Part shown: positions 11,006 through 31,154 of the stretch, piece after piece
How the letters are laid out: every line of letters starts with the position of its first letter
Position numbering within the stretch: position 1 is the first letter of the stretch
NCBI RefSeq assembly: GCF_011050365.1
Contig: NZ_DRFV01000010.1
Location: 1-64,000, forward strand
Length of the DNA stretch: 64,000 nucleotides
From: Pseudohongiella sp.
GTDB lineage: Bacteria > Pseudomonadota > Gammaproteobacteria > Pseudomonadales > Pseudohongiellaceae
Direction: 5' to 3'
Made by a program: the position numbers and the translations under genes
The notes under the pieces: generated by a model
Databases searched by the model: none
What the model saw: the letters and a program-made list of their open reading frames with translations, nothing else
What the model was told of the DNA's origin: nothing

Positions 11006-11407
11006 TCACGAGGCTGCCTGGGACGCCGGATCAATCTCGTCCCAGCCGGTCTTTACCGTGCGCATCAATTCCGTCACCTCCTGCACCAGCGCCGGGTCAT
11101 TGCTGACATTGGCCTCAAACAGGCGGCGCTGCATGTAATCATACAAACGCTCCAGGTTGTCGACCAGGTCCGGCGCCCTGTCACGCTCCAGACTGCCTTG
11201 CAGACCGGCGATAATCCCGGTTGCCTTGCCCAGCAATACCCCCTTGGTTTCGACTTCGCCGCGCTCCATGGCGGATTTGGCCTGTACCAACCGGTCCAGC
11301 GCGCCACTCATTAACATCTGGATCAATCGATGCGGACTGGCCTGATCGATGCCACTTTCATTGTTGATGCGTTTGTACTGCGCGGCGGCCTGGGTCATTG
11401 AATACAT
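11006..11407 (-). CDS. fliS: Flagellin export chaperone FliS
   Basis: A 133-aa four-helix chaperone that binds the C-terminus of flagellin and keeps it monomeric until export. Family features include the N-terminal QYKRINNESGIDQASPHRLI, the MLMSGALDRLVQAK helix and a C-terminal YDYMQRRLFEANVSND segment. An AGGAG lies 6 bases before ATG 11407. It follows fliD in the usual fliD-fliS order, 91 bp downstream. A partner FliT-like gene is not adjacent but lies at 20394. Confidence 0.95.
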   Translation of the reverse strand: MYSMTQAAAQYKRINNESGIDQASPHRLIQMLMSGALDRLVQAKSAMERGEVETKGVLLGKATGIIAGLQGSLERDRAPDLVDNLERLYDYMQRRLFEANVSNDPALVQEVTELMRTVKTGWDEIDPASQAAS

Positions 11408-11498: not shown

Positions 11499-14315
11499 TT
11501 AATCTGTTTTCGGCCTGACCAATGCCTCCAGCATATCGAGCTGGGAGGTCAGAAAGTCTGCCGTGGTGTTGAACCGGGAAATAATCAGGTCATTGGCGGT
11601 AAATGACGACTGCAGTCGTCGCTCCGAGCGCTCCATGCGCGCCTCCAGCTCGACCCGGCGCTCGGCGATCTTCTCCAGCTCGCCGTTCAGCGAGTCCTGC
11701 CGGCCACTGAGCACGCCACCAGGCGCCAGAAAGGAATCAAGCAGTCTGTTCATCCGGTCAGCGGCACCCCGGGTGTAGTCCACCGTGCCCCGGTCACCCA
11801 CCTCACCGCCATCAATACGCAGGCGCAAACCGGATGACGGGTCGGGTTCACCGCTGGCGTCACGCCCCGACTCGCCACGGGCGCCACGGCCAATGTTAAA
11901 GCCCAGCAGGTCGCCGGCATTGCCCTGGAGTTGGGCGATCCTGACGCTGGATGAGGCGCCGGTGGAATTGGAAATAATGCCGAATGCGCCCGAAGGCACG
12001 TCGTAATCCACGGTAACGCCGACACCGGCCGCTATCATGGCCGGGTTGTTATTGATCGCGGTCTGCATGGCGGCGGCGACGGTTGCAGGGCTGCTGTCAC
12101 CCAGGGTACCCAGGGAGATGGCACCTGACAGGACACCGTCAACTTCCACCCGGAAACTGTCGCCCGAGGTACTGGCGGACAGATCACCGTGCGCGGCATT
12201 CAGATAGAATCCGGGGCGTGCCGCTATGGCGCCGCTGGACGCTGTCAGGAACTGCCCATTGCCTTGTGCCTCAATGCCGTTGATTGTGCCCGCCACATCA
12301 ACGCCACGAATTGACGTGTCCTGTGCTCCGCTGCCCAGAAAAAGCCCCAACTTGCTGGCGGCGGCAAAATTCACTTCGGTAAACCGGATGTCATCTCCGG
12401 CATTGGACGTGGAGAAGATCAGCCGAGCCTGCGCGTTGTCCGCGTTGTACTCATAATTCACGTTGACCGTGATACCTTCGCCAGCCAGCGCGTCATTGAT
12501 CTGCGTCGCCAGCGCCGCTGTCAGTTCGTCAGGTGTGGTATAGGTCACCGGCGCACCGGCGTCACCGGGCAAGGCCAGCGCACCGGTGCTGATGCCGTTG
12601 ATGGACAGCTGGAATGTTGTGTCCTCGTCTATCACCAGAGGGTCAGTGAACGCATCAGTGCTCAGCCCACCGGTGCTGGCAAGCGCGTTCAGCTGATTGC
12701 CCTGGAACGGTCCGCGATTGTCCAGCACCAGCCCGAGCGTGGCCGAGGCTTCGGCGGAGATAGCACTGAAGCGGATCACCGACTCGTCGCCGTATCGGTT
12801 GGAACTCATATCGAATCGCGATTCGCTGGCGTTGTACACAACCGTCATGCTGTCTTCGGCATCTATGACATCGGCATTGCTGTTGATCTGTGCCTGCAGT
12901 TCGGTGGCTAGGTCTTCGGCGGTGGCATAGGTGGCTTCGGTCAGGCTGATATCCACCTCATTGCCGTTAAATATGATGGTGAAATTCTTATTATCGGCAT
13001 CGATGACGATATTGCCCGAGTCCAGTGCGGCAACGCTGATGCCTTCATACCGTCCCACTTCGGCCATGCGGGTGACTTCCAGTGCATAGCTGCCCGGCTG
13101 GGTATTACGCCCGGCACTCAGAAAGCTGACCTGCGTGTCGGAGGCGACACCGGTGGCAGCAAATAACCCGGTTACCGCCTGCGGATCGGTGGCAAACGCT
13201 GCTTCAAACTCGCTGCGATCAAAGGTCAGCTGGTAGTTGTTAAACTGATCCGAAGTAATACCGACTTCCGCCAGCGAACTGAATGTGGCGCCCGACGTCA
13301 CCTGACGCAGTGTGCTGTTGATTTCCGTCATGATTCTGCGCAGGGCGGTATCACCGGTCAACAGACTGCCCTGTCCAGAGCTTCCGGAGTCCGGATCGAA
13401 CGCCGACAATTGATCACTGATGCCTTTCAGCCCGTTGTAGGTATCAACAAAATCCTGCACCTTGTCCATCAGCTCGCTGGGGTCTTTTGTAATACCCAGA
13501 CTGACCGGACCCGTGGTCGTCGACTTGAGGTTCAGGGTAACGCCCGGAATTACACCGGCCACGAGGTTGTCGCTACGACTGATGGAGAGACCGTTAACTG
13601 TGAACAACGCATCCTGCGCTGCCTGGGTCTGGCTGGCAGTCTGTGAACCGGCATTGAAGTTGAATGCAGCCATCCCGGCCGTTCCGCTGGCAGTCAGCTC
13701 GATACTTTGATCTGCGCCCGCCTCGGCGCTGGTAAACAGCAGGCGGAAACCACTGCCATCGTCAACGATGGTGGCCTCGATGCCAATATCCGCGCTATTA
13801 ACGGCATCACGAATGCCGGCAAGAGTGTTGTTGCTTGCATTGATGACCAGGGTGCGTTCCGCGACATCATCATTGACGGTGAAGCCCTGATACACGCCAC
13901 CACCGTCAACATCAGTGCTGCCAAAGCGGAAGCTCAGTGAGCCCGTGCCTATCGCCTCATTGACTGATTCATAGGATTGCGTAGCAATGGTTTGCTGCTG
14001 GGCAAGCTGCTGAACCTGAACAGAATAAGTACCCTCACTGGCAGTACTGCCAGCCGTGGCGGTGAGCGCAGACTCGTTACTGGAATTGACCTGACTGGCA
14101 TTGAAGGCTGAGGTGCTGTTGAGCGCGCGCATAGCCGACTGCAGTTCATCAACAACACTGCTGATCTCGCCAAACGCAGTCAGTTTGGCTTCTGCCAGCT
14201 CCTGCTCAACATCCAGACGCTGCTCAATCGGGGCACGCTCTGCTTCCAGCAGCGATTCCAGCAGCTCGCTGGTCAGCAAGCCGGACCCTATGCCCAGTGA
14301 TTGTATGGTAGCCAT
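11499..14315 (-). CDS. fliD: Flagellar filament cap protein FliD (HAP2), enlarged
   Basis: A 938-aa cap protein that folds flagellin subunits at the filament tip. The usual length is about 450-700. FliD_N is clear at residues 1-100 (SLGIGSGLLTSELLESLL) and the C-terminal coiled helices end in TADFLTSQLDMLEALV. Between them are several Flagellin-IN-like hook-domain units (for example SLSFRFG, GFTVNDDVAERTLVINASNN, FQLSINGIS). The reading frame is intact and the codon bias uniform, so the enlargement looks genuine. A strong ribosome site (GGAGAC) precedes ATG 14315, and a sigma54 promoter lies 70-85 bp upstream. Confidence 0.95.
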   Translation of the reverse strand: MATIQSLGIGSGLLTSELLESLLEAERAPIEQRLDVEQELAEAKLTAFGEISSVVDELQSAMRALNSTSAFNASQVNSSNESALTATAGSTASEGTYSVQVQQLAQQQTIATQSYESVNEAIGTGSLSFRFGSTDVDGGGVYQGFTVNDDVAERTLVINASNNTLAGIRDAVNSADIGIEATIVDDGSGFRLLFTSAEAGADQSIELTASGTAGMAAFNFNAGSQTASQTQAAQDALFTVNGLSISRSDNLVAGVIPGVTLNLKSTTTGPVSLGITKDPSELMDKVQDFVDTYNGLKGISDQLSAFDPDSGSSGQGSLLTGDTALRRIMTEINSTLRQVTSGATFSSLAEVGITSDQFNNYQLTFDRSEFEAAFATDPQAVTGLFAATGVASDTQVSFLSAGRNTQPGSYALEVTRMAEVGRYEGISVAALDSGNIVIDADNKNFTIIFNGNEVDISLTEATYATAEDLATELQAQINSNADVIDAEDSMTVVYNASESRFDMSSNRYGDESVIRFSAISAEASATLGLVLDNRGPFQGNQLNALASTGGLSTDAFTDPLVIDEDTTFQLSINGISTGALALPGDAGAPVTYTTPDELTAALATQINDALAGEGITVNVNYEYNADNAQARLIFSTSNAGDDIRFTEVNFAAASKLGLFLGSGAQDTSIRGVDVAGTINGIEAQGNGQFLTASSGAIAARPGFYLNAAHGDLSASTSGDSFRVEVDGVLSGAISLGTLGDSSPATVAAAMQTAINNNPAMIAAGVGVTVDYDVPSGAFGIISNSTGASSSVRIAQLQGNAGDLLGFNIGRGARGESGRDASGEPDPSSGLRLRIDGGEVGDRGTVDYTRGAADRMNRLLDSFLAPGGVLSGRQDSLNGELEKIAERRVELEARMERSERRLQSSFTANDLIISRFNTTADFLTSQLDMLEALVRPKTD

Positions 14316-14686: not shown

Positions 14687-15727
14687 ATGTTCAATAGACA
14701 ATCGCTCGCCAGCCACGTGGCGTTGCTGGGAACCGGCATACTGGCGACGGGTTTACTCTCCGTCACTGTCATCGCGCAACAACAGAACGACGACGCTTAT
14801 ACTGTGCCCCGTACTTCATACGGTGCGCCTGACCTGCAGGGTGTCTGGCGAAATGCCACGGTGACTCCGCTGACGCGTCCGCGCGAACTGGGCGAACAAC
14901 AGGCCTACAGTCGTGAAGAGGCCTTTCAGCTGGAGCGTGCAGCCCAGATGGCGGTGGAGCAGGACAACGAACCACTGGATCCGAACAGACCACCACCGCC
15001 GGCTCAGGACCTGCCTCCGGTCGGCAACTACGACCTGTTCTGGACCGACCGCGGCATGTTCATGCCTACCATTGATGGCGAATTCCGCACCTCCATCATC
15101 ATCGATCCGCCGGACGGACAAATGCCCGGCTACACGGATGAATTTCTTGCGCAGCGAGCCCGGCAGCGGGAAACCGGCCCCGATCCTTTTGACGGCCCCG
15201 AAGGCCGCGGTGTTGGTGAACGCTGCCTGCTCTCCTTTGGCTCCAACTCCGGGCCACCCATGTTGCCGGTGATGTACAACAGCCATTATCAGATCGTGCA
15301 ATCACCCGGCTATGTGGTGATCGTGGCAGAGATGGTTCATGACGCCCGTATCATCAAGATTCAGGACCGGCATGACGCTACCGCCGACGTCATGAACAAA
15401 TGGATGGGCGACTCCATTGGCCGCTGGGAAGGTGACACGCTGGTGGTGGAGACCCGACACTTCAACCCCTGGCAAAGCTTCCGCGGCGCCTCGGAGAACC
15501 TGACCGTGACCGAACGCTTCCGCAAGGAATCCGACAGCAAGATCATTTACTCCTTCACAGTGAATGATCCGACGGTGTTCGAGTCCACGTTTACCGGTGA
15601 GCTGGCGCTGACTGCGTATGACGACCCGCTTTACGAGTATGCCTGTCACGAAGGCAACTACGCTCTGGCGGGTACCCTGGCCGGCGCGCGCCGGGCTGAG
15701 GCGGAAGCAGCAGAACAGCAAAACTGA
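14687..15727 (+). CDS. Uncharacterised secreted protein
   Basis: A 346-aa protein with a Sec signal peptide (LASHVALLGTGILATGLLSV, likely cleaved after VIAQ). I recognise the mature part only as a recurrent uncharacterised family. Its motifs are YGAPDLQGVWRNATVTPLTRP near the mature N-terminus, then CLLSFGSNSGPPMLP and IGRWEGDTLVVETRHFNPW. I believe proteins with this layout are common in marine gammaproteobacteria and Acidobacteria, but I know no assigned reaction. It has its own promoter and a terminator, and it sits on the opposite strand inside a flagellar cluster, so it is probably unrelated to motility. Confidence 0.75.
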   Translation: MFNRQSLASHVALLGTGILATGLLSVTVIAQQQNDDAYTVPRTSYGAPDLQGVWRNATVTPLTRPRELGEQQAYSREEAFQLERAAQMAVEQDNEPLDPNRPPPPAQDLPPVGNYDLFWTDRGMFMPTIDGEFRTSIIIDPPDGQMPGYTDEFLAQRARQRETGPDPFDGPEGRGVGERCLLSFGSNSGPPMLPVMYNSHYQIVQSPGYVVIVAEMVHDARIIKIQDRHDATADVMNKWMGDSIGRWEGDTLVVETRHFNPWQSFRGASENLTVTERFRKESDSKIIYSFTVNDPTVFESTFTGELALTAYDDPLYEYACHEGNYALAGTLAGARRAEAEAAEQQN

Positions 15728-15831: not shown

Positions 15832-16308
15832 CTAAACCTGCGTCTTGAACAATGAAATGGGTTCTTCGGTGTCAATCTGTTTGGCAAGTTCCAGCGCTTC
15901 TTTGCTGTCAAACTGCCGCAATATTTTGCGCGACTCGCGATCGACGACGGTCACTGACGGTTCCTGGCTCAGCGGATCAATATCAAACACAATATCCCGC
16001 TTCACAGTCTGTACATAACGATTGAGTTTGGTGACGGCCTGCTCAAGAATTTCTTCGGCCGAGGCATCTGCATGATCAGACTGAACAGCAGTCGTATTTT
16101 TGCCGTTGCCATGCGTTTCGGACTCCCTGTTGGTGGCCGTTTGCCTGCCGGATTCCTGTCTACCTGAGCCCTGTTTACCTGAGCCCTTGTCGTCCGGTGT
16201 ATTGTCAGTATGCTCCGCTCCTACCTCATTCTCGACGGCCTGGACAGAATTGACCTTCTCCCTGGCAACGACCGCAGGCTGGAATCGGGTGATACTGATT
16301 TCACTCAC
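15832..16308 (-). CDS. flaG: FlaG family flagellar protein
   Basis: A 158-aa protein whose C-terminal 80 residues match FlaG (LNRYVQTVKRDIVFDID, VTVVDRESRKILRQF). FlaG influences filament length in Pseudomonas and Vibrio. The N-terminal half is low-complexity and rich in G, S, N and charged residues, so likely disordered. I chose GTG 16308 because GGGAGG stands 6 bases upstream; an open frame extends to a TTG at 16326. It lies downstream of flagellin on the same strand, separated by two large hairpins. Confidence 0.85.
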   Translation of the reverse strand: MSEISITRFQPAVVAREKVNSVQAVENEVGAEHTDNTPDDKGSGKQGSGRQESGRQTATNRESETHGNGKNTTAVQSDHADASAEEILEQAVTKLNRYVQTVKRDIVFDIDPLSQEPSVTVVDRESRKILRQFDSKEALELAKQIDTEEPISLFKTQV

Positions 16309-16392
16309 AGCGCGCCTCCCACACAAGCATCCTTAACTGATAATCCGGACGGGTGTCCGGACTACATTTTGAATCGCCAGCGACCTGGAGAA

Positions 16393-16447
16393 GCCTCTGA
16401 ATAAGACTGTGAGCTCACGCAGAGTAGACACAGTCTTATTCAGAGGC
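16393..16447. repeat. Perfect 19-bp inverted repeat
   Basis: GCCTCTGAATAAGACTGTG at 16393-16411 is the exact reverse complement of 16429-16447, with a 17-base loop. It lies between flagellin and flaG. There is no strong T-run on either side, so it is not a typical terminator. It could be a protein-binding palindrome, a REP-like element or an RNA stability hairpin. Confidence 0.8.
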
Positions 16448-16464
16448 TCCCGGAAAGCGGAAAT

Positions 16465-16504
16465 CCGCCGGGCGTCTACCATCTTATCGGTAGGCGCCCG
16501 GCGG
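16465..16504 (-). terminator. Flagellin transcript 3' hairpin
   Basis: CCGCCGGGCGTCTACC pairs with GGTAGGCGCCCGGCGG (one G-T wobble) around an 8-base loop, just after the flagellin stop. The T-run on the minus strand is weak (ATTTCC), so it may act as a partial terminator or as an mRNA stabiliser. Confidence 0.6.
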
Positions 16505-16519
16505 ACTTTAGCTTTTGTT

Positions 16520-19500
16520 TTACTGCAGCAGTGAAAGAACCTGCTGACCAGAGGCGTTAGCCTGTGACAGGATGGAAATACCAGCCTGTTGCAGTACCTG
16601 GAATCGTGCCAGGTTAGCCGCTTCGGCCGCGAAGTCCGCATCACGGATTCGCGAGTTGGCAGCAGACAGGTTCTCAGAGTTGATCGCCAGGTTGGAGATC
16701 GTCGCTTCAAACCGGTTCTGCACCGCACCGAGGTCAGCTCGGGCACTGTTCACAGAGTTCAAGGCATTGTCGATCGCTGACAGAGCTTCATTTGCTCCCT
16801 TTTGAGTGGAGATATCCACTTCATTCAGGAACTGACCGGACACTGCGCCACCAAAGTCGCCCTTCTGGAAACCCAGCGCGGCCAGATCGTCATTGCCGTT
16901 TGTGCCACCTGACAATTCGATAGTACCTGCACCACTCAGGGTTACCGTAGAGTAAGTTGTTGATGCCACCGCGTCTGCAGCAGCCTTATCAACAGCACCA
17001 GAGCCGAAGTCTGACTCGCCCACGCCACCAAGACCAAAGTTTGCAGCAGTGGCGCCGCCGTTGGTGTTCATCGCCAATGATACGTTACGGCCATCAGCAG
17101 CAGTCAATGTAACACTGGTACCGTTATCTTCAGCAATGACACCCGTCTGACCAGATACCGAGTTAATCTGGTTTACAGCAGATGCCCGGTTAGAGTCAGC
17201 ATCAGCCTGAACCGTCATGTTGACGTCAACGCCGTTGATATACAATGTTGCCGTATCACCAGCCACACCAGCTGTTGCCGCCGATGCTCCGGACGTAGAT
17301 GTCGCATTGACCGTTGCCGTTACACCAGTAGAGTCAGTGGAGCGGTTGATGGCTGCTGCGATAGAGATACCAGACGCTTCTTTACTGCTTGACGCAGCAC
17401 CCGCGTAGGAGGACGTATCATCTGTTGCCTTGGCTGCACCGATGTTGATGCTGTTGATAACCATGTCGCCTGCTGCCAGATTGGCAAAACCAGCCGCGCC
17501 GGCATCAGCACCTGAATCAGACGTTGCGACCAGGCCCAATTCGGCAGCCGCGTTACCACCCAGATTGGCAATCTGGACTGAACTGCTGTCACCCGTTGTG
17601 TTAGAGGTAATCACCAGTTCGCCATCATCGTTGATAGACGCAGTCGCGCCGGTCAGCTGACCGTTAATTTCGTTCAACAGATCAGTTTCACTGGCAACGT
17701 TGTTGTCAACGTTAACGCTCTGTACAGTGCCGCCATTAACGTAGACATCAAAGGTAGCGTTGTCAGGATCGACCGCCACCACGCCGGTGTCAGTTGAACC
17801 TTCACCCAGACCCAACGCCGTAGCAGCATTTACAGCACCGCCGGCATCGTTAAAGGTAATGGTATCACCACCATTCGCGTCTTCGGTAAACACCAGCTCA
17901 TTGTCGACGTTTAATGAAGCGGTGAAGCCTGAGCCGGAAATGGCTGAGTTGATATCGGTCAGCAGCTGCGTATTACCGCTGCCAGCGCCACCGCCAATAT
18001 CAGCATCTGTGTAACTGGTGTTCAGCGTTACTGTATCTGTGCCACCATCAGTCGATGTAATGGTAAACGAAATGTCGTTAGCAGCAGAGCCTGTATCTGT
18101 AGCACCACTCTGCAGGCCCAGAATCGCACCACCCGCCAAACTGCCTTGCAGGTTGCTGACGGTAGTAAGGCTGGTAGCGCCAGTTGTTGCAGACGTGATC
18201 ACCAGGTTGTTATCGCCATCCAGTGACGCCGTAGCAGCCTGTGAGCCAAAGTCAGTCAGAATCTGTCCATTGATGGCAGACAGCAAATCGGCACTGCTGG
18301 TGACGTTAGAAGTCAGGTCGATGGTTTGAGTACCCAGACCATCAATCTCCAGATCAAATGAGCCGGTTGCGGTGTCAGCGACGCCCACAGCAGTATCATT
18401 GGCACTGGTAAAACCAAAAACTGTGTCGGCGTCCGTGGCAGCGAAACCAGCAGTGAAGATCGCTGTTTGATCCGACGCTGTATCCTGAGTCAGAACCAGC
18501 TGGTTACTACCATTCAGCGACGCAGTGAAACCGGAACCAGAGAGCTGAGTGTTGATATCGCCTAGCAGCGCAGTATTACCATCACCCAATGTTCCACCAT
18601 TAGCGGTATCCGTGTAGTCAGTGTTGATAAGAACATCGTAGTTGTCGCCATCAACCACGCTCAAGGTAAACGCGACAGTATTAGTGTTGAAGTCCGTACC
18701 AGTGGCACTCAGGGCCGCAGTGCCAGTCAGCACAGCCTGCGTGCCGTTGGCAGTAAAGTTGTTGCTGATAGATGACAGATCAACGCCAGTTGAGGCGGTA
18801 ACAGCGGCGGCCGATGCAGCCGAGAAATCAGTACCGGTTGCACTCAACTGGACACCACCGTTCAATGTCGCCAGCTCTGCCTGTATGCCTGCACTGTAGT
18901 CGAATGCCACGTTGGCAGCCGTGGTGCCTCCAACCGCACCTGCTTCAGCAGCTGTACCAGGACCCGCAGTTCGCGCAGTCGAGCTGACATTTGCTACACC
19001 AGCGGTGTAGGTGCCTGAGGCCAGACCAGCAGCCGCTGTATTGCTGCCATCGATGGCGATGCTGTTAGTGCCGCTGTCGGCAACCAGGGTAACGCCGCCG
19101 GTGTAGGTGCCGGACGCTGCCAGACCTGTTGACGCCGCAGTCAATGTACCGCTGGTGCTCAGGTCAAGTTCAATGTTACGACCGTCTTCCGCAACCAGGC
19201 TGACACCCAAGGCATCGTCACCGGTATCAATCGCTGTGACGCCCGTGAGAGACGATTGTGCGTTAATCGCAGTGACCACAGCGGAACGTGAAGAGTCTGC
19301 ATCACCCGTGGTTTCAATACTGATAACAGTGTTGTTGATAGTGATGGTGCCGGCTTGCGCAGAGGCGGTCATTTCACTACCAGAAGCAACGTTTTCATCA
19401 ACCAGAGCGGTCACGCCCGAGTCAGCCGATACGCGGTTGATAGCTGCTGCTTTAGAGATAGCACTGGCGCTTGCCAGATCGGTAGAGGATGAGTCGTCAG

Positions 19501-20107
19501 AAGCGCGCGAAGCGCCAACGCTGACACCGTTGATGGTCAGGTCGCCGCCGCTCAAAGCACTGCTGGTAGCAGTAGCGCTGACGCCAGACTTGGCGGATAC
19601 ACCCAACGTATCAGAGGTCAGCTTGCCGATGGACACGCCGATAGTCTCGCCGGCATTGGCGCCAACCTGGAAGGATGTGCTCAGTGAGCCGTCCAGCAGG
19701 TTTACACCGTTGAAGTTAGCACCTTCAGAAACACGTGAAACCTCTTCGATCAGCAGCTGTGCTTCTGCGTTCAGTGCTTCACGGTCAGCCGAGCTGTTGG
19801 TACCGTTAGAAGCCTGCAGAGCCAGTTCGCGGATACGCTGCAATGATTCGGTCATGGAACCGAGTGAACCTTCCGCAGTTTGTGCCAGAGACACACCATC
19901 ACCTGCGTTACGGATCGCTACGTTCAGACCTTTGATTTGTGATTCGAAACGCGTGGAGATCGCCAAACCGGCCGCATCGTCCTTCGCGCTATTGATTCGC
20001 AGACCTGAAGACAGTCTTTCCAGAGCCTGGTTAGTACCGGCCTGTGAACTGTTCAGATTACGCTGCGCGTTCAGTGAAGCAATGTTGGTATTTATGACTT
20101 GAGCCAT
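16520..20107 (-). CDS. fliC: Giant flagellin
   Basis: A 1195-aa flagellin; common flagellins are 270-550 aa. The D0/D1 N-terminus (MAQVINTNIASLNAQRNL to about residue 180) and C-terminus (IRDADFAAEAANLARFQVLQ, last 100 residues) are canonical. The roughly 900-residue centre is a chain of Flagellin-IN-like and beta-rich modules. One unit type occurs near residues 185-330 and again near 877-1040 (DLTINGVSVGAS and DMVINSINIGAA). Another recurs at least four times in between (TASLNGSNQLVLTQ, TASLDGDNNLVITS, TASLNVDNELVFTE, TASINDDGELVITS). A sigma28 promoter lies upstream and hairpins follow. Only one flagellin gene is in this window. Confidence 0.96.
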   Translation of the reverse strand: MAQVINTNIASLNAQRNLNSSQAGTNQALERLSSGLRINSAKDDAAGLAISTRFESQIKGLNVAIRNAGDGVSLAQTAEGSLGSMTESLQRIRELALQASNGTNSSADREALNAEAQLLIEEVSRVSEGANFNGVNLLDGSLSTSFQVGANAGETIGVSIGKLTSDTLGVSAKSGVSATATSSALSGGDLTINGVSVGASRASDDSSSTDLASASAISKAAAINRVSADSGVTALVDENVASGSEMTASAQAGTITINNTVISIETTGDADSSRSAVVTAINAQSSLTGVTAIDTGDDALGVSLVAEDGRNIELDLSTSGTLTAASTGLAASGTYTGGVTLVADSGTNSIAIDGSNTAAAGLASGTYTAGVANVSSTARTAGPGTAAEAGAVGGTTAANVAFDYSAGIQAELATLNGGVQLSATGTDFSAASAAAVTASTGVDLSSISNNFTANGTQAVLTGTAALSATGTDFNTNTVAFTLSVVDGDNYDVLINTDYTDTANGGTLGDGNTALLGDINTQLSGSGFTASLNGSNQLVLTQDTASDQTAIFTAGFAATDADTVFGFTSANDTAVGVADTATGSFDLEIDGLGTQTIDLTSNVTSSADLLSAINGQILTDFGSQAATASLDGDNNLVITSATTGATSLTTVSNLQGSLAGGAILGLQSGATDTGSAANDISFTITSTDGGTDTVTLNTSYTDADIGGGAGSGNTQLLTDINSAISGSGFTASLNVDNELVFTEDANGGDTITFNDAGGAVNAATALGLGEGSTDTGVVAVDPDNATFDVYVNGGTVQSVNVDNNVASETDLLNEINGQLTGATASINDDGELVITSNTTGDSSSVQIANLGGNAAAELGLVATSDSGADAGAAGFANLAAGDMVINSINIGAAKATDDTSSYAGAASSSKEASGISIAAAINRSTDSTGVTATVNATSTSGASAATAGVAGDTATLYINGVDVNMTVQADADSNRASAVNQINSVSGQTGVIAEDNGTSVTLTAADGRNVSLAMNTNGGATAANFGLGGVGESDFGSGAVDKAAADAVASTTYSTVTLSGAGTIELSGGTNGNDDLAALGFQKGDFGGAVSGQFLNEVDISTQKGANEALSAIDNALNSVNSARADLGAVQNRFEATISNLAINSENLSAANSRIRDADFAAEAANLARFQVLQQAGISILSQANASGQQVLSLLQ

Positions 20108-20190: not shown

Positions 20191-20217
20191 TTAACGACAC
20201 AGAAAATCAAAGCTTTA
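20191..20217 (-). promoter_or_regulatory. Sigma28 (FliA) promoter of flagellin
   Basis: On the minus strand TAAAGCTT, an 11-bp spacer, then GTCGTTAA. The consensus is TAAAGTTT-N11-GCCGATAA, giving matches of 7/8 and 6/8 at the correct spacing. It lies 84 bp before the start codon. Confidence 0.75.
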
Positions 20218-20393: not shown

Positions 20394-20735
20394 ATGGCTT
20401 TTCCAGATCAAACCGAAATTCGCGCCACACAGCTAGCAGCCTGGAAACATATCATGGCGCTATCTGAGCAATTACTGCACAGTGCAAGGCGCCAGGACTG
20501 GGATAACCTTGATCGTCTGCACGGCGAACGTGAGCAGGCACTGGAACACTTTTTCCGCGAGGCCCTGATCCAGGATCTGATCCCGATCGTTCAGCAGGAT
20601 ATCAAAAAAATTCGTGACCAGGATAGCGATATTGTTCAGATGGTAAAAAATAATCGCGACGAACTCGGCGCCGAATCACGACGCCTGAATCTGATGAAAA
20701 ATCGCATCAAGGAATATTTATCGGCAGATAAATAG
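20394..20735 (+). CDS. fliT: FliT-like flagellar chaperone
   Basis: A 113-aa all-helical protein resembling FliT: LSEQLLHSARRQDWDNLDRLHGEREQ near residues 25-50, then a charged coiled helix to the C-terminus. FliT binds the cap protein FliD, and in enterics also FlhDC. It is transcribed divergently from flagellin rather than behind fliD-fliS, which is unusual for fliT but keeps it inside the late-gene cluster. A 13-bp palindrome (AGTGCATTGCACT, 20313-20325) lies in the shared promoter region. The assignment rests on size, helix pattern and context. Confidence 0.65.
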   Translation: MAFPDQTEIRATQLAAWKHIMALSEQLLHSARRQDWDNLDRLHGEREQALEHFFREALIQDLIPIVQQDIKKIRDQDSDIVQMVKNNRDELGAESRRLNLMKNRIKEYLSADK

Positions 20736-20762
20736 TTTCTTTAGGATGAACAGCAAATATTT

Positions 20763-22007
20763 TTAAAAGTAGTTAAAAAGCGATAATTTGCTGACTTTGC
20801 TGAAGCTGGCCTGCGCCGCTTCCAGTACAAAGGTTTCCTGTGTCAGTTGGCTAATTGCTTTGGCAATATCAAGGTCCTCCAGCTCCGACAATGCGGTATC
20901 AATCACCAGGTCAAAATCATCATTGCTGGATTTCGCGGACTCCACCTGATTCAGACGCGCGCCAATAGCAGCACGCGTATCCAGCAGTTTGCCCTGGGCA
21001 CCGTCCAGATTGGTAATGGTCCGGCTCAGGGCCTGATCCCTTATCTGCCGGTCGGCTGTGGAGTTGCCCGTCTGCTGCAATACCTGGATATAGTCTTCAA
21101 TGCCGCCCAGCAGGCCCTTGCGATTGTCCGACTCCACCATAAACGTGTCACCCGGTGCCGGCTTCCCCTGAATACGGACTGACAGCCCGTTAAATTCAAT
21201 GTTGTTGCCAGAGACATAACGCAGGTTCTCGCTGATCACGCGCCCGTCGGAAACCTGCCGGATACTGAAATTGACCCCGGGTGGCGAAACCTCGTTTTCC
21301 GAGTTGAATTCAATCACCGCGCTTTCCGGGTAAAAACGCTCGAACTGTTCGCGGTCGCGGATGACACCGCCATCCATGCGAGCCGGTGGAACCGCCGTGT
21401 TACGTTCGCTGGCACTGGCCCTGAAGCCCGATTCCACACCGGGAATATTCATGAATACTTCGTAGCCCGAGTCGTTGGCGGCAATCGAAGTCACCGGCCC
21501 TACCTGGATAAAGCGCTGGCCTTCATCCCCCTGGTAGGCGTATCGACCGTCGGCACCTTTCTCAAAAGGCTGTGTCTTGCCCTGGTAGCCGGAAAACAGA
21601 TACTCACCGCTGGCATCGCGACTGTTCATCAACTGCGCCATACCATCGACCAGAGATTGCAACTCTACCGCGATAAATTTGCGCTGATCCTTGTTCAACG
21701 CGGCATTACCTGACTGGGTAATCAATTCCTGTGCCTTTTGAATCTGGTCACTGATACCGGCTATAGCCGTTTCTTCGCGCTGCAGACGATTATCAAGCGT
21801 AGACAGGCTGTTGTTGAACTGGTTGGTATTGGCCTTCTCCTGCCTGAGCTGCAGGATTCGGGCAGCCGCAATTGGGTCATCGGCAGGTGACAACACGCGC
21901 TTGTTGGTGGAAATCTGCTGTTGTGTGTGATTGGCTGCTTTCTGCACATCCAGCATGGCATTCAGGCCGCGGTTGTAGATCTGACTGGTTGATAGTCTGA
22001 CGGTCAT
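20763..22007 (-). CDS. flgL: Hook-filament junction protein FlgL (HAP3)
   Basis: A 414-aa junction protein that, with FlgK, links the hook to the filament. The flagellin-like N-terminal coil (RLSTSQIYNRGLNAMLDVQ) and C-terminal coil (SELEDLDIAKAISQLTQETFVLEAA) are conserved. The centre has the usual FlgL domain (DASGEYLFSGYQGKTQPF). Its length is close to that of Pseudomonas FlgL. It is the last gene of the flgB-L operon, 19 bp after flgK. Confidence 0.95.
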   Translation of the reverse strand: MTVRLSTSQIYNRGLNAMLDVQKAANHTQQQISTNKRVLSPADDPIAAARILQLRQEKANTNQFNNSLSTLDNRLQREETAIAGISDQIQKAQELITQSGNAALNKDQRKFIAVELQSLVDGMAQLMNSRDASGEYLFSGYQGKTQPFEKGADGRYAYQGDEGQRFIQVGPVTSIAANDSGYEVFMNIPGVESGFRASASERNTAVPPARMDGGVIRDREQFERFYPESAVIEFNSENEVSPPGVNFSIRQVSDGRVISENLRYVSGNNIEFNGLSVRIQGKPAPGDTFMVESDNRKGLLGGIEDYIQVLQQTGNSTADRQIRDQALSRTITNLDGAQGKLLDTRAAIGARLNQVESAKSSNDDFDLVIDTALSELEDLDIAKAISQLTQETFVLEAAQASFSKVSKLSLFNYF

Positions 22008-22026: not shown

Positions 22027-24708
22027 TTACATATTCAGCAGGGTATCGAAAAGATCCCGTGCCAGCCCGATCAGTCGCGCGGATGCATTGTAATGTTGTT
22101 CCAGTTGAATCAGGCGCGCGGCTTCTTCTTCCAGGTTCACGCCAGACACCGATTGCATCGCATCCATTGACTGACGCAGCATGGATTCACTGGCACTCTG
22201 ATTGACACGTGCCTGACTGGTCAGAATACCCAGTTTTTCTGCCAGCTGGCCGTAGGCATCCTGATAAGACAGATTGCCGTCAGACAAGATTGATGTGCTC
22301 GCCAGCGCCAGCATGGCCGAGCCATTACGACTGTCTGCAGATCCATTCTTGTTATAGTTGACAGTAAAGGTATCGCCGGCCTTGGGCTGACCTTCAAGGC
22401 CGCTGCCACTGGTCATGTTGATCTGTATGCCGAGAAAGTTCTTGTTTGCTGTTGGCGAGGCACCAAACCGCCCGGCGCTGATATCAGAACTTAACGTCGT
22501 GTTGGCGGCCATCTGCACATCGATCTTGCCACCGACGGTGAAGTTTACTGCGGGGTCGGCCGGGAGTGGCGCCGTCACCAGATCTGCATCATCCCCAACC
22601 GTCAGCGAACCGCCACCATCAACACTGAATTTCAGATCGATACCGGTATTGGCAAAAACGCTGAGTGTAACGCCGTCACTTTTGGCGCTGATCCCCAGAG
22701 CAGCCAGGTCCGGGTTGCTGTTAATCCTGTCGCGCAGGAAATCCGCCGTCAGCGGCACTGGCACATCCTGCGCGACTGATTCACCCGGCAATACATAGTT
22801 CGGGTCGGTAATATCGACACCGTTCAAAGTCAGTTGCAAGGCTTCTCCCGGTGCACCGGCAGTAAAATCCTGCAGACTGGTTCGGGTATAGGCCGTGGCA
22901 TTGACACCACTGAGTGCTGACAACCGGCTGGCTGTGACCGAGGCCTGCTCACCGGCGGCAGCGGTCACACTTTGCTGATTGATGAAACCGGTGTCTGGAT
23001 CGGTTGTCTCCAGCCTGATGGTTTCACCGGGGTAACCGTTGCCCGTTGATGGCAGCTGCAACAGGCCCGCCACGGCAGTGTCAGTACTCACCGTGGTCCC
23101 ATCAGGGTCTGTGGGCAGCAATGGATTCTGTGACCCCGGCACAAAGGGTAAATTGGTCAGTGGCGGCTCCAGCTGCACCGGGTTTGCCGGATTGGAATAG
23201 TCCAGCACATCATAGGTCGTGGCCGACGTAAACCGAATACCCAGCGGCGGACTGAAACTGCCATTTTTGGCAAATAATGCGGTATCGGTGCTGATAACCC
23301 GGGTAGCCAGTATCTCAGCCCCGCCCTGATTGGCGCTGGCGGTATCAATACGTAGCGGCGAGGCAAAAGCAAACTCTTCCGGTCGAGTAATCTGCATCTG
23401 CATCTGCCCCACTCCGCTACGGGTCGGTTGCAACAGAAAGCGGTCACCGGCAGTGAATGTGCCTGCATCAATATGCAGGGTAAAGCCGTCGATGCTGATC
23501 TCCTGCGGACGGGCGTTGCCGAGCATGCCCTTTTCCATGACCTCACCGTCGGATTTACGCACAATATTGTATTGCTGCCCGCCCGGTCCCGGAAATGTCA
23601 GCTCATAGTCGCTAATGGTCAGGGATGCAAGGTCATCAATGGTAATGCTCATGTCTTTATTGAAAGGAGGCGAATTCCGGCTGTCGTCCCTAACACGACT
23701 GCTGGCCAGCGAAGCTTCATTAATATCCGCAAAGACATTGCCGCCCAGACTGCCCTCAAGGTCCATACCCAGCCTGTTCTGCTGATTGATGCCCTCGGTG
23801 ATTGCCAGACCTATACGCCCAAGGGAATTCAGCGCCGGGTCTAGCGCCTCGTTGCGAAAACGCACCAGACCGCCCAGCTCGCCACCGGCCATCTGTCGGG
23901 TAATATTCTGCAACTCCGTACCTTTGCTGAAAAACAGCTCATATCGGCTGGAGTCCTGATTGCCCGGACTCGCGACCAGCTTCTGCGTCTCCGACCCAAC
24001 CACCAGTGGCTGATTCTGGCCAATAAAGACATCCATGCCGCCGTCTTCTCGATTGATCGTGGAAACGTTGACATACTTTGACAATTCACGAATCAGAGTA
24101 TCACGTTCATCCAGCAGGTCATTGGGGCTCTGCGCTGTTCCTCCGCCCTGGGAGTCCGCAATAACCTGGTTGAGTTCGGAGATCTGCTGGCCTAATGACG
24201 TGACTGCACCGGCCGCTGCCTGCATCTGTTTATTGACTGACAGGTTCTGCTCCGACAGGCGCGACTCCACACCCTCGAAACTGGACACCATCTGCTGGCT
24301 CTGGGACATTAATAACTGACGGCCCAACAATGAACCGGGGTCATTGACAGCCTCATTCAGCGCATCAAAATAATCATTCATGGCCCTGGACAGACTGGTC
24401 TGTTCGGATGCCAACAGGTTGTTGGTCTGCGAGATATTGAACAGGTAGGTATCATGATTGCTGAGTGCGGCGATATCCTGAACGACCTGGTCAACGAGAA
24501 ACTTTTCCGTGTTACGGTAAATATCATTGACCTGCACCCCCGTACCCAGATAGCCCGCTGGAGTGCTTATAGAAATGGTGGTCGACTGCGATACAGACTG
24601 ACGGCTATAGCCTTCTGTGTTGGCGTTGACGATATTGTTACCGGTCACTGACAGGGCCGTCTGGTTCAGGCGAATGCCGCTAATGGCGGTATTGATCAGG
24701 TTGCTCAT
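22027..24708 (-). CDS. flgK: Hook-associated protein FlgK (HAP1), enlarged
   Basis: An 893-aa hook-filament junction protein; E. coli FlgK is 547 aa and Pseudomonas about 680. The N-terminus (SNLINTAISGIRLNQTALSV, then NTEGYSRQSV) and C-terminal coil (SGVNLEEEAARLIQLEQHYNASARLI) are typical. The extra 200-350 residues are inserted in the middle and are rich in Flagellin-IN-like beta modules (SLTISDYELTFPGPG, ALQLTLNGVDI). The frame is continuous. It starts 1 bp after the flgJ stop. Confidence 0.95.
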   Translation of the reverse strand: MSNLINTAISGIRLNQTALSVTGNNIVNANTEGYSRQSVSQSTTISISTPAGYLGTGVQVNDIYRNTEKFLVDQVVQDIAALSNHDTYLFNISQTNNLLASEQTSLSRAMNDYFDALNEAVNDPGSLLGRQLLMSQSQQMVSSFEGVESRLSEQNLSVNKQMQAAAGAVTSLGQQISELNQVIADSQGGGTAQSPNDLLDERDTLIRELSKYVNVSTINREDGGMDVFIGQNQPLVVGSETQKLVASPGNQDSSRYELFFSKGTELQNITRQMAGGELGGLVRFRNEALDPALNSLGRIGLAITEGINQQNRLGMDLEGSLGGNVFADINEASLASSRVRDDSRNSPPFNKDMSITIDDLASLTISDYELTFPGPGGQQYNIVRKSDGEVMEKGMLGNARPQEISIDGFTLHIDAGTFTAGDRFLLQPTRSGVGQMQMQITRPEEFAFASPLRIDTASANQGGAEILATRVISTDTALFAKNGSFSPPLGIRFTSATTYDVLDYSNPANPVQLEPPLTNLPFVPGSQNPLLPTDPDGTTVSTDTAVAGLLQLPSTGNGYPGETIRLETTDPDTGFINQQSVTAAAGEQASVTASRLSALSGVNATAYTRTSLQDFTAGAPGEALQLTLNGVDITDPNYVLPGESVAQDVPVPLTADFLRDRINSNPDLAALGISAKSDGVTLSVFANTGIDLKFSVDGGGSLTVGDDADLVTAPLPADPAVNFTVGGKIDVQMAANTTLSSDISAGRFGASPTANKNFLGIQINMTSGSGLEGQPKAGDTFTVNYNKNGSADSRNGSAMLALASTSILSDGNLSYQDAYGQLAEKLGILTSQARVNQSASESMLRQSMDAMQSVSGVNLEEEAARLIQLEQHYNASARLIGLARDLFDTLLNM

Positions 24709-29114: not shown

Positions 29115-31154
29115 TTACAGGTTGATGATGGTTTGCGTTGCCGTATCCTGCGCCGAAATCACCTGGGCCGCGGCCTGGTAGTTACGTTGCGAGATGATCA
29201 GCTGCACCAGCTGCGCCGGCAGATCGACGTTGGAGTCTTCCAGCGCACCGGACTGGATGGCGCCCAGACCTGCGGTACCAGCGCCCGAGACTGACGCAGT
29301 ACCCGACTCACTGGTTTCGCCAAACTTGGTGCCGCCCAGATTGGACAACCCGGCCGGGTTTGAGAAATTGGCCAGCGCCACTTCACCCAGAGCCCGTGAC
29401 TGACCGTTGGAGAATCGTGCCGATACCAGGCCTCGGTCGTTGATTTCCAGACCGGTCAACTGTCCCTTGGCAAAACCATCCTGATTATTCGACTGTACTG
29501 AGAAGTCACCGCCAAACTGGGTCAACTGGCTAAGGTCAATGGTGAAGTTTGAGTTGGTCAATTGCCCGGCGACATTGGGGTCACCCGGAATCGGTCCGGC
29601 ACCTTGCTGTCGGCCCAGACTGTCTACCGGCGTCCAGTTGGTGATCTGAATGGGGCTCTGGTTCGGATCGTAAATACCATTATTGTCGAAGCGCAGGTCG
29701 AAACGTGCGAGTACCGGCTCACCATCGGTGGAGTTGGGGTCATAACCAATATTGCGATTATCCACCTGCAGGTAAACACTCCACAGGTTGTTGCTGTCGG
29801 TTTCATCCGGACGCTCCTTGACGAAGTACTTCGTCAGTGAATGCTGGTTACCCAGTGAGTCATAGATGGTCACAGCGGTGGAGCGATAATAGGTATCCGG
29901 ATTTCCAGGATCAAACTGATTGGTTGAAAACGGTATACCATCAAGGGCATCTTCGGCGCTGATGTCACCAAAGATGCTGCCGGTCACCGTGGTTTGGTCA
30001 ATGGCATTACCCTCGCTGTCTTCAGTCGCCGCCGTGAAGGTAACATTCTCTTCCAGCGTAAAATTCACAATACCGCCGACCAACACGGAGTCACCGGTCG
30101 CGGTATCAACAGTCACCGGACCATCTGTCGAGCGAGTGTATTCTTCATCGGTGCTGTCGTATTCAGAGCCGTATACGTCAAACGTGCCAGCCCCGGTTGC
30201 GCCGCCGTGGAAGCGAAGATCCGCACCGGTGTTGTGCGTCACCTCAAGGTCAGTACCACCCACAACGCGGGCGCTGACGTTGGTGACAGTGGCATTGATG
30301 GAGTCTGCCAGTGTCTGCAATTCGTCAGCCACCACAGCTGGTGCGGTAAAGTCGGCAGCAAAATTGAGACCGCCAATGTTGAAATTGACGGGACCGGCAT
30401 TGAAGTTGGTCAGATAGGCGACACTGGTGGCACGGGCCGTGACACCGTTGACGGCGGAGAACTGCTGCGCAACGGCATTGGCCGAAGAATTTGCCGCTAC
30501 ATCTATCAGGCGCGTGACATTGTCGCTGCCCAAGACGCTGATACTGTTGGCCTCATAACCGTTTTCCAGCGCATCACCTGCAGTGATTGCCACCGGCGCG
30601 CTCGAGCGGCCATTGTTACTGGTGATGGTGGTGCCAACCAGCGCTGAAGGCTGCGCACTGGCATCCAGGTTGATCACCGAAGACACCGTCGTGGTTGCGC
30701 GCGGAGGAATCTCACCGGTGGTGACGCGCAGGTCTTCCAGGGGGCCGCCGCCGGTAGGCTGACCGGTCGGAGAAGGCGAAAAGCCCTGCAAACGCTCACC
30801 GGCCCCGGTTACAATGAAGCCGTTTCTGTCGGTACCAAAGGCACCGGCCCGGGTATAGCTGACGCCGGACTCGCCACTCAGCACAAAGAAGCCTTCGCCG
30901 TTGATGGCCATGTCCAGCGTACTGTTGGTAAAACTGATATTGCCCTGGTTAAAGTTCTGTTTGATCTCTTGCAGGGAGACACCACTACCAGCCTGGGTGC
31001 CACCGCCGCCCAATACTGATGCGGCGTATACATCACCAAACACTGTGCGTGATGACTTGAAGCCGGTTGTGCTGGAGTTGGCAATGTTGTTACCGGTGAC
31101 GCTGATTTCCTGCTGCGCTGCATTGAGCGCACTCAATCCGATAATAAAACTCAT
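29115..31154 (-). CDS. flgE: Flagellar hook protein FlgE, enlarged
   Basis: A 679-aa hook subunit; E. coli FlgE is 402 aa and Pseudomonas about 460. The ends are canonical (MSFIIGLSALNAAQQEIS, NIANSSTTGFKSSRTVFGDVY, and a C-terminal QLVQLIISQRNYQAAAQVIS). The middle has an added Flagellin-IN-like segment near residues 190-300 (VNFNIGGLNFAADF) plus the usual FlgE D1/D2 region (AVTIYDSLGNQHSLTKYFVK). The hook is secreted through the flagellar export apparatus. Confidence 0.96.
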   Translation of the reverse strand: MSFIIGLSALNAAQQEISVTGNNIANSSTTGFKSSRTVFGDVYAASVLGGGGTQAGSGVSLQEIKQNFNQGNISFTNSTLDMAINGEGFFVLSGESGVSYTRAGAFGTDRNGFIVTGAGERLQGFSPSPTGQPTGGGPLEDLRVTTGEIPPRATTTVSSVINLDASAQPSALVGTTITSNNGRSSAPVAITAGDALENGYEANSISVLGSDNVTRLIDVAANSSANAVAQQFSAVNGVTARATSVAYLTNFNAGPVNFNIGGLNFAADFTAPAVVADELQTLADSINATVTNVSARVVGGTDLEVTHNTGADLRFHGGATGAGTFDVYGSEYDSTDEEYTRSTDGPVTVDTATGDSVLVGGIVNFTLEENVTFTAATEDSEGNAIDQTTVTGSIFGDISAEDALDGIPFSTNQFDPGNPDTYYRSTAVTIYDSLGNQHSLTKYFVKERPDETDSNNLWSVYLQVDNRNIGYDPNSTDGEPVLARFDLRFDNNGIYDPNQSPIQITNWTPVDSLGRQQGAGPIPGDPNVAGQLTNSNFTIDLSQLTQFGGDFSVQSNNQDGFAKGQLTGLEINDRGLVSARFSNGQSRALGEVALANFSNPAGLSNLGGTKFGETSESGTASVSGAGTAGLGAIQSGALEDSNVDLPAQLVQLIISQRNYQAAAQVISAQDTATQTIINL

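Follow-up and report, generated by a model that had tools for sequence, protein, structure and literature searches.

A 1195-residue Pseudohongiella flagellin with a four-module insert whose history differs from that of its core

The DNA analyzed here, called the window throughout, is the first 64,000 nucleotides of contig NZ_DRFV01000010.1 of Pseudohongiella sp. (assembly GCF_011050365.1); it holds a flagellar gene cluster, mostly on the minus strand, that includes the gene for a giant flagellin. An initial annotation had placed a flagellin of 1195 amino acids (aa), built from repeated modules, at 16520–20107. The protein is indeed encoded there, but by the minus strand, from a start at 20107 down to a stop at 16520, frame 1 of the plus strand being full of stops over the same positions; the annotation had missed which strand is coding, how the slot is built and a run of 513 residues without lysine, arginine or histidine (K/R/H). 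The product has a mass of 116.6 kDa and an isoelectric point of 4.05, and its ends match Flagellin_N (PF00669; residues 5–141, E 3.3e-42, 144.3 bits against a cut-off of 26.6) and Flagellin_C (PF00700; residues 1109–1194, E 4.3e-26, 91.5 bits against a cut-off of 23). Between them lies an exposed part of ~920 residues (179–1098), close to the 900 first proposed. The parts of the gene are as follows, with module E-values from a profile seeded by the window's own modules.

16520..20107, minus strand: giant flagellin gene, 1195 aa (open frame, Pfam, self-alignment)
19574..20107, minus strand: N-terminal half of the D0/D1 core, residues 1–178 (PF00669 at 5–141 and match to solved cores)
18938..19567, minus strand: DE1 region, residues 181–390, with one IN-type module at 254–331 (self-similar to DE2; module E 6e-7; contiguous high-confidence predicted fold)
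18677..18937, minus strand: spacer with short repeats, residues 391–477, low model confidence
18404..18673, minus strand: IN-type module 1, residues 479–568 (E 1e-17)
18104..18361, minus strand: IN-type module 2, residues 583–668 (E 5e-18)
17798..18073, minus strand: IN-type module 3, residues 679–770 (E 6e-20)
17525..17758, minus strand: IN-type module 4, residues 784–861 (E 2e-21; own model with a predicted local distance difference test score, pLDDT, of 84.3)
16823..17431, minus strand: DE2 region, residues 893–1095, with one IN-type module at 954–1026 (self-similarity, profile, predicted fold)
16523..16813, minus strand: C-terminal half of the D1/D0 core, residues 1099–1195 (PF00700 at 1109–1194)
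17432..18970, minus strand: 513-residue run without Lys, Arg or His, residues 380–892

Self-alignment recovered at least two repeat families, as had been claimed: the DE pair and the module array, with six modules in all (four in the insert and one in each DE region). By Smith-Waterman comparison, DE1 and DE2 scored z 13.7 with 76 of 198 aligned positions identical, module 1 against module 3 scored z 19.3 and module 2 against module 4 scored z 15.0, each beating the best of 300 shuffles, with a core-versus-module control at z 0.1. This pairing suggests that a module pair may have been duplicated; modules 1 and 2 alone match each other weakly (z 2.9), and the alternation is not clear in all relatives. 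The spacer carries a weaker repeat of ~35 aa (residues 399–476, z 5.9). Structure prediction, a check that the initial annotation had named for the exposed region, was made with AlphaFold2 from 30 sequences (mean pLDDT 71.8, predicted template-modeling score, pTM, 0.49). DE1 and DE2 came out apart from each other, each as one unbroken stretch and mostly at pLDDT 87–96, with the spacer below 50 and a beta-beta-alpha-beta-beta order in each module. With the caveat that domain placement in the model is unreliable, the prediction favors the first of two foldings considered by Thomson et al. (2018; PMC6248924, available text), in which the DE domains are continuous and not split.

By model scores, the product is FliC-type and not FlgL: the FlgL model TIGR02550 gave 78.8 bits, below its cut-off of 127.2, flagellin models gave up to 397.7, and a separate FlgL gene adjoins. 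The D0/D1 core matches solved flagellins at VIA-align Z scores of up to 23.4 (9n8h; root-mean-square deviation, rmsd, 1.8 over 200 residues). A Flagellin_N search of the window's own genome (G000; 99.05% complete, 17 contigs) returned two matches, the giant flagellin and FlgL, so that the second, ordinary flagellin whose presence had been raised as a check was not found; FliD, FlgK and FlgE gave one match each. The giant protein is thus the sole flagellin found in G000, sited within the Pseudohongiella flagellar cluster, a status that suggests a filament-forming role. With 1195 aa, a large central insertion and two tandem, self-similar DE regions, it has the features of giant flagellins (>1000 aa); the four repeats in the insert set it apart from the DX type, whose insert lacks internal repeats. 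DE1 and DE2 are presumably equivalent to the DE regions of Thomson et al. Flagellin_IN (PF07196) reached 30 bits over six stretches of residues 176–1100 (cut-off 22.7), with lower scores of 20 bits on the whole protein and 17.1 on residues 391–890 alone, and Pfam searches of the whole protein and the exposed region found no flagellinolysin metallopeptidase or other enzyme domain. An assembly artefact is ruled out by nine complete giants of the same layout in separate genomes. Together, these results identify a real giant flagellin, of a marine-type gammaproteobacterium as first supposed, and a variant distinct from the giant flagellins already known.

The initial annotation had also likened the repeats to those of FliD and FlgK and had suggested that the modules expanded together. 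The flagellar components concerned are encoded nearby.

11499..14315, minus strand: FliD cap protein, 938 aa, with four IN-type modules at 145–222, 444–529, 567–658 and 720–807 (Pfam and module profile)
20763..22007, minus strand: FlgL, 414 aa (Pfam)
22027..24708, minus strand: FlgK, 893 aa (Pfam)
29115..31154, minus strand: FlgE hook protein, 679 aa (Pfam)

The likeness to FliD held within the window, where its four modules scored E 1e-4 to 8e-3; for FlgK it held in relatives, whereas the window's own FlgK, like its FlgE, gave no module with the profile. With a profile built up from flagellin modules alone, 196 domains in FliC, 80 in FliD and 16 in FlgK were found at E 1e-3 among the loci, and none in reversed sequences. 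Five further hits fell in one FlgL-labelled open reading frame (ORF) and, four of them, in two unlabelled ORFs (loci L073 and L074) that are hook proteins (FlgE) by their C-termini. The profile from the four window modules likewise returned nothing at E≤0.1 when run against all reversed ORFs. Against solved structures, the module profile matched flagellin chains at E down to 2.9e-16 (6b5b) and FliD at 0.0014 (6sih) and 0.0024 (9gsx); phmmer with the insert sequence, in contrast to the module alignment, found no solved structure at E up to 1. When module 4 was modeled from 56 flagellin module sequences, the model superposed on the D2–D3 domains of the FliD head (6kty, Z 7.9, rmsd 2.5 over 82; 5h5v, Z 7.2, rmsd 2.7 over 83) and on Vibrio flagellin (9n8h, Z 7.0), with weaker matches to Campylobacter FlgK (5xbj, Z 4.7) and a hook chain (5jxl, Z 4.1); Foldseek gave none at E 0.001 or better (best 5.8e-3). 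Z scores below 8 can reflect a common arrangement, and the sequence profile is the firmer support for kinship of the modules. The module is a known fold, common to FliD and ordinary flagellin D2, and forms a single building block shared by flagellin, FliD, FlgK and FlgE.

The top structural match of the module 4 model was a chain of the phage XM1 baseplate complex (7kh1; Z 8.1, rmsd 2.4, 31% identity over 85), followed lower down by further phage sheath or tail chains. The module may possibly be common to phage tail and flagellum; tblastn found no copy of the insert in phage records, and a PHROGs search with a single module reached only E 0.044 at best.

To compare the sizes of the flagellar parts, we used the 15 genomes of Pseudohongiella (genus g1, including G000), excluding G023 (flagellin cut by a contig end, FliD not found) and G031 and G032 (another flagellar system, with a FliD of about 490). 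Flagellins are 1190–1202 aa long in 4 genomes and 686–713 aa in 8; the short ones (five aligned) consist of DE1 followed by DE2 without the insert, and carry two modules versus six in the giants. With either class, FliD measures 931–970, FlgK 884–893 where complete, FlgL 413–414 and FlgE 683–712, so the proposed shared module expansion does not hold for this gene: within Pseudohongiella, flagellin size is decoupled from the sizes of FliD, FlgK, FlgE and FlgL. Small-flagellin relatives with the same system have FliD of 678–716, FlgK of about 640 and FlgE of about 425, and large-flagellin genomes of another genus, g6, have, where complete, FliD of 1190–1436, FlgK of 897–1347 and FlgE of 684–1204, one of them (G039) combining a giant flagellin with a smaller FlgK and FlgE. 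Across 82 loci with complete FliC and FliD (13 duplicate loci and loci without a complete pair were dropped), the two lengths correlate (rho 0.73, with 14 exceptions); the correlation did not hold up under control for the tree, where three independent supported pairs differ in flagellin size class and FliD changed the same way in 0.0 of them on average, and coupled FliC–FliD growth was rejected. Giant-flagellin lineages often have other large parts, but not in step with the flagellin.

Three further observations concern flagellar sizes in relatives. Several genomes (G031, G032, G036, G040, G086, G102, G106, G123 and others) carry a second, divergent flagellar system with FlgK and FlgE mostly of about 920–1025 aa, FliD of only about 475–500 and short flagellins; hook and junction can therefore be large without a large cap or filament protein. 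In Pseudoteredinibacter (L072), two flagellins of 866 and 1221 aa lie in the same cluster and are sisters in the core tree. An order-level sample of 20 loci, hand-picked for large open frames among the matches listed and therefore not random (L148 is the same locus as L071), included 12 with a flagellin of at least 1000 aa; in 11 of these one or two modules only were detected, and L150 (1359 aa) has six.

The nine complete giants of Pseudohongiella and g6 each have four insert modules, and comparing them part by part shows that insert and core reject one common history. Within the genus, G000 and G030 are 97% identical in the core, 71% in the DE regions and 36% in the insert; between genera, G000 and G039 are 85%, 67% and 66% identical, respectively. 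In the tree of the insert, G000, G020 and G039 group together with 100/99 support and the genus clade is rejected (approximately unbiased test, p 6.8e-6), whereas the D0/D1 core tree recovers the genus at 100/100 and rejects this trio (p about 1e-114). With the DE regions, the trio is again rejected (p 0.008), and the genus as a clade gets neither support nor rejection (p 0.33). We infer from this that the insert behaves as a cassette, exchanged between genera rather than sorted from old variants.

The insert also differs in composition. Counts of K/R/H are 0 of 501 in the G000 insert and 0 of 512 in that of G030, which lies within a 524-residue run free of these residues in spite of its 36% identity; the exposed part of FliD has 21 of 434 in each of the two genomes. 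In other complete flagellins below 650 aa (103 rows, duplicates kept), the longest such run has a median of 57 and a maximum of 185, and in the order-level large flagellins it spans 60–319. Other reading frames of the same DNA contain 34–122 K/R/H, and base composition therefore does not forbid basic residues. Holding 56 Asp and Glu, the insert is strongly acidic. Trypsin would by our estimate leave the basic-free run as one ~50 kDa piece, and roughly half of the exposed protein would escape standard tryptic proteomics; a proteomics test of the filament protein therefore needs another protease. Selection for the absence of basic residues is likely; its benefit is a guess, be it stability in seawater or protection from proteases, predators or phages.

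Our preferred reading, which we consider probable, is that this protein is the sole structural flagellin of a single system, combining an ordinary core, DE1 and DE2 with a swappable module cassette of ~500 residues that forms an outer shell and is independent of cap, junction and hook size. The ends, ordinary D0/D1 in sequence and fold match, would polymerize into the filament tube; DE1 and DE2 are each predicted as one continuous domain, and the slot between them holds the spacer and four modules. The cassette would add an outer shell and so thicken the filament, to go by the available text of Thomson et al. (2018; PMC6248924). By leaving D0/D1 and DE1/DE2 untouched, the cassette could come, go or be swapped with no effect on the size of cap, junction or hook proteins, a proposed structural reason for the presence or absence and the tree conflict seen in the comparisons. 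Such a shell, because it has no basic residues, would be polyanionic and should resist trypsin. More tentatively, and with less than an even chance in our estimate, the DE1–DE2 slot may be a dedicated site at which species and genera exchange, gain or lose a basic-free polyanionic array of ~500 residues with no tie to cap, junction or hook, giving the filament a protease-resistant coat that can change.

Several points weigh against the preferred reading. The protein fell short of the whole-protein cut-off of every NCBIfam flagellin model (the best gave 397.7 of 531 bits), and the structural model is of moderate confidence, with unreliable inter-domain placement. The groups in the tree tests were chosen after the identities had been seen, so their p-values are optimistic, although the contrast is still large. 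Inserts of the other seven giants contain 1 to 14 K/R/H (0 to 14 over all nine), and the chance of finding none at the DE rate, 2.5e-7, is an after-the-fact figure.

If the insert types predate the split of the genera and were sorted by loss along vertical descent, no transfer between genera is needed; the DE tree, which leaves the genus clade undecided, is compatible with this, and flagellin duplications do exist (two copies in L038, L041 and L042). Such descent requires, however, that variants were long kept in one slot while the core stayed genus-specific, and it has to accommodate cores that are 97% identical beside inserts at only 36% (G000 and G030), which makes it doubtful in our view, though the strongest of the rivals. 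The idea that flagellin, cap, junction and hook grew in concert, since outer parts must match at their joins and modules expand as a set, draws on the FliC–FliD correlation, on the pairing of 24 of 25 flagellins of at least 1000 aa with a FliD of at least 800 aa, on FlgE/FlgK size classes that shift together between lineages (about 425/640, 687/892 and 1197/1224–1347) and on one and the same module being present in FliD, the FlgK of relatives and the FlgE of L073 and L074. We regard it as improbable given the flagellin change of ~500 aa within Pseudohongiella at unchanged sizes of the other parts, the three tree-controlled pairs without a matching change in FliD and the 14 exceptions among the 82 loci.

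Two other alternatives concern the composition and the role of the protein. The lack of basic residues could be a by-product of base composition, or a saving of cost or nitrogen in a protein made in very large amounts: longer flagellins show a weak tendency to less K/R/H in the exposed part (rho -0.38, 153 sequences), and the insert has the least side-chain nitrogen per residue (0.118, versus 0.150 in DE and 0.338 in D0/D1). Yet the other frames of the same DNA are not short of K/R/H, Asn and Gln are not reduced in the insert (11.8%), and its mean synthesis cost of 18.3 is not below the 17.4 of DE, so we think this explanation unlikely. That the giant protein is a minor or non-filament flagellin is highly improbable, with no point found in its favor: a genome that is 99% complete yielded no other flagellin, and the gene lies within the flagellar cluster.

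The remaining features around the gene are a candidate promoter and accessory genes.

20191..20217, minus strand: sigma-28-like promoter, 110 bases before the start codon (TAAAG-N14-GTCGTTAA-type site)
15832..16326, minus strand: FlaG, start codon uncertain (Pfam)
11006..11407, minus strand: FliS chaperone (Pfam)
20394..20735, plus strand: FliT-like chaperone, on the strand opposite to the flagellin

A site of the type TAAAG-N14-GTCGTTAA lies 92 to 112 bases before the flagellin gene in 16 of 16 Pseudohongiella and g6 loci (19 loci examined); these sites resemble the sigma-28 consensus. A perfect site of this kind, TAAAG-N13-GCCGATAA, at 20718–20743 on the minus strand, overlaps the 3' end of the FliT-like gene and points to the flagellin from 636 bases away, and a site with up to two mismatches lies 565–670 bases before the gene in 10 of 11 Pseudohongiella loci examined. 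We set the 20718–20743 site aside as the flagellin promoter because of the conserved site 110 bases before the gene. The cluster further includes FlgD, FlgI and FlgJ-type genes and a FleQ-type regulator (Pfam), with FlgM on the plus strand. A 346-aa ORF on the plus strand (14687–15727), between FlaG and FliD, matched no Pfam family at E 0.01, and two strong consecutive inverted repeats, seen by eye, occupy ~16390–16505 between the flagellin stop and FlaG.

A search of titles and abstract starts, with partial coverage of the literature, found no description of the insert, of its exchange or of the basic-free run. Exchange of the hypervariable centers of flagellins is already known (PMC7018530), and the Pseudohongiella case parallels it in having conserved ends and a swapped center; as far as the available text of that paper goes, it differs in where the conflict sits, namely midway along the exposed part between conserved DE1 and DE2 regions, and in that some flagellins have the insert and others lack it. 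The module itself is shared with Flagellin_IN (PF07196), with the central domains of solved flagellins (6b5b, Campylobacter 6x80, P. aeruginosa 8sug) and with FliD heads (5h5v, 6kty, 6sih); those solved chains have one matched stretch, or two in 6x80, whereas here there are six modules, four of them arrayed in one slot. The closest parallels are the giant flagellins of Bermanella marisrubri (1,020 aa) and Oleibacter marinus (1,190 aa), which the available text of Thomson et al. (2018; PMC6248924) presents as likewise exceeding 1000 aa, being the sole flagellin, and having conserved ends, two tandem DE-type regions and, in the largest, an extra insert between the DEs. There the DX insert is described as lacking repeats, whereas the slot here holds four repeats of a widespread FliD-related module; the filaments of those species were measured as thick (at least 30 nm). 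Thomson et al. asked whether other flagellar parts are correspondingly large in species with giant flagellins. Pseudohongiella answers this question with close relatives whose flagellins of ~700 and ~1195 aa go with equal cap, junction and hook sizes, and the effect of filament thickness on swimming can be tested there with little else changed.

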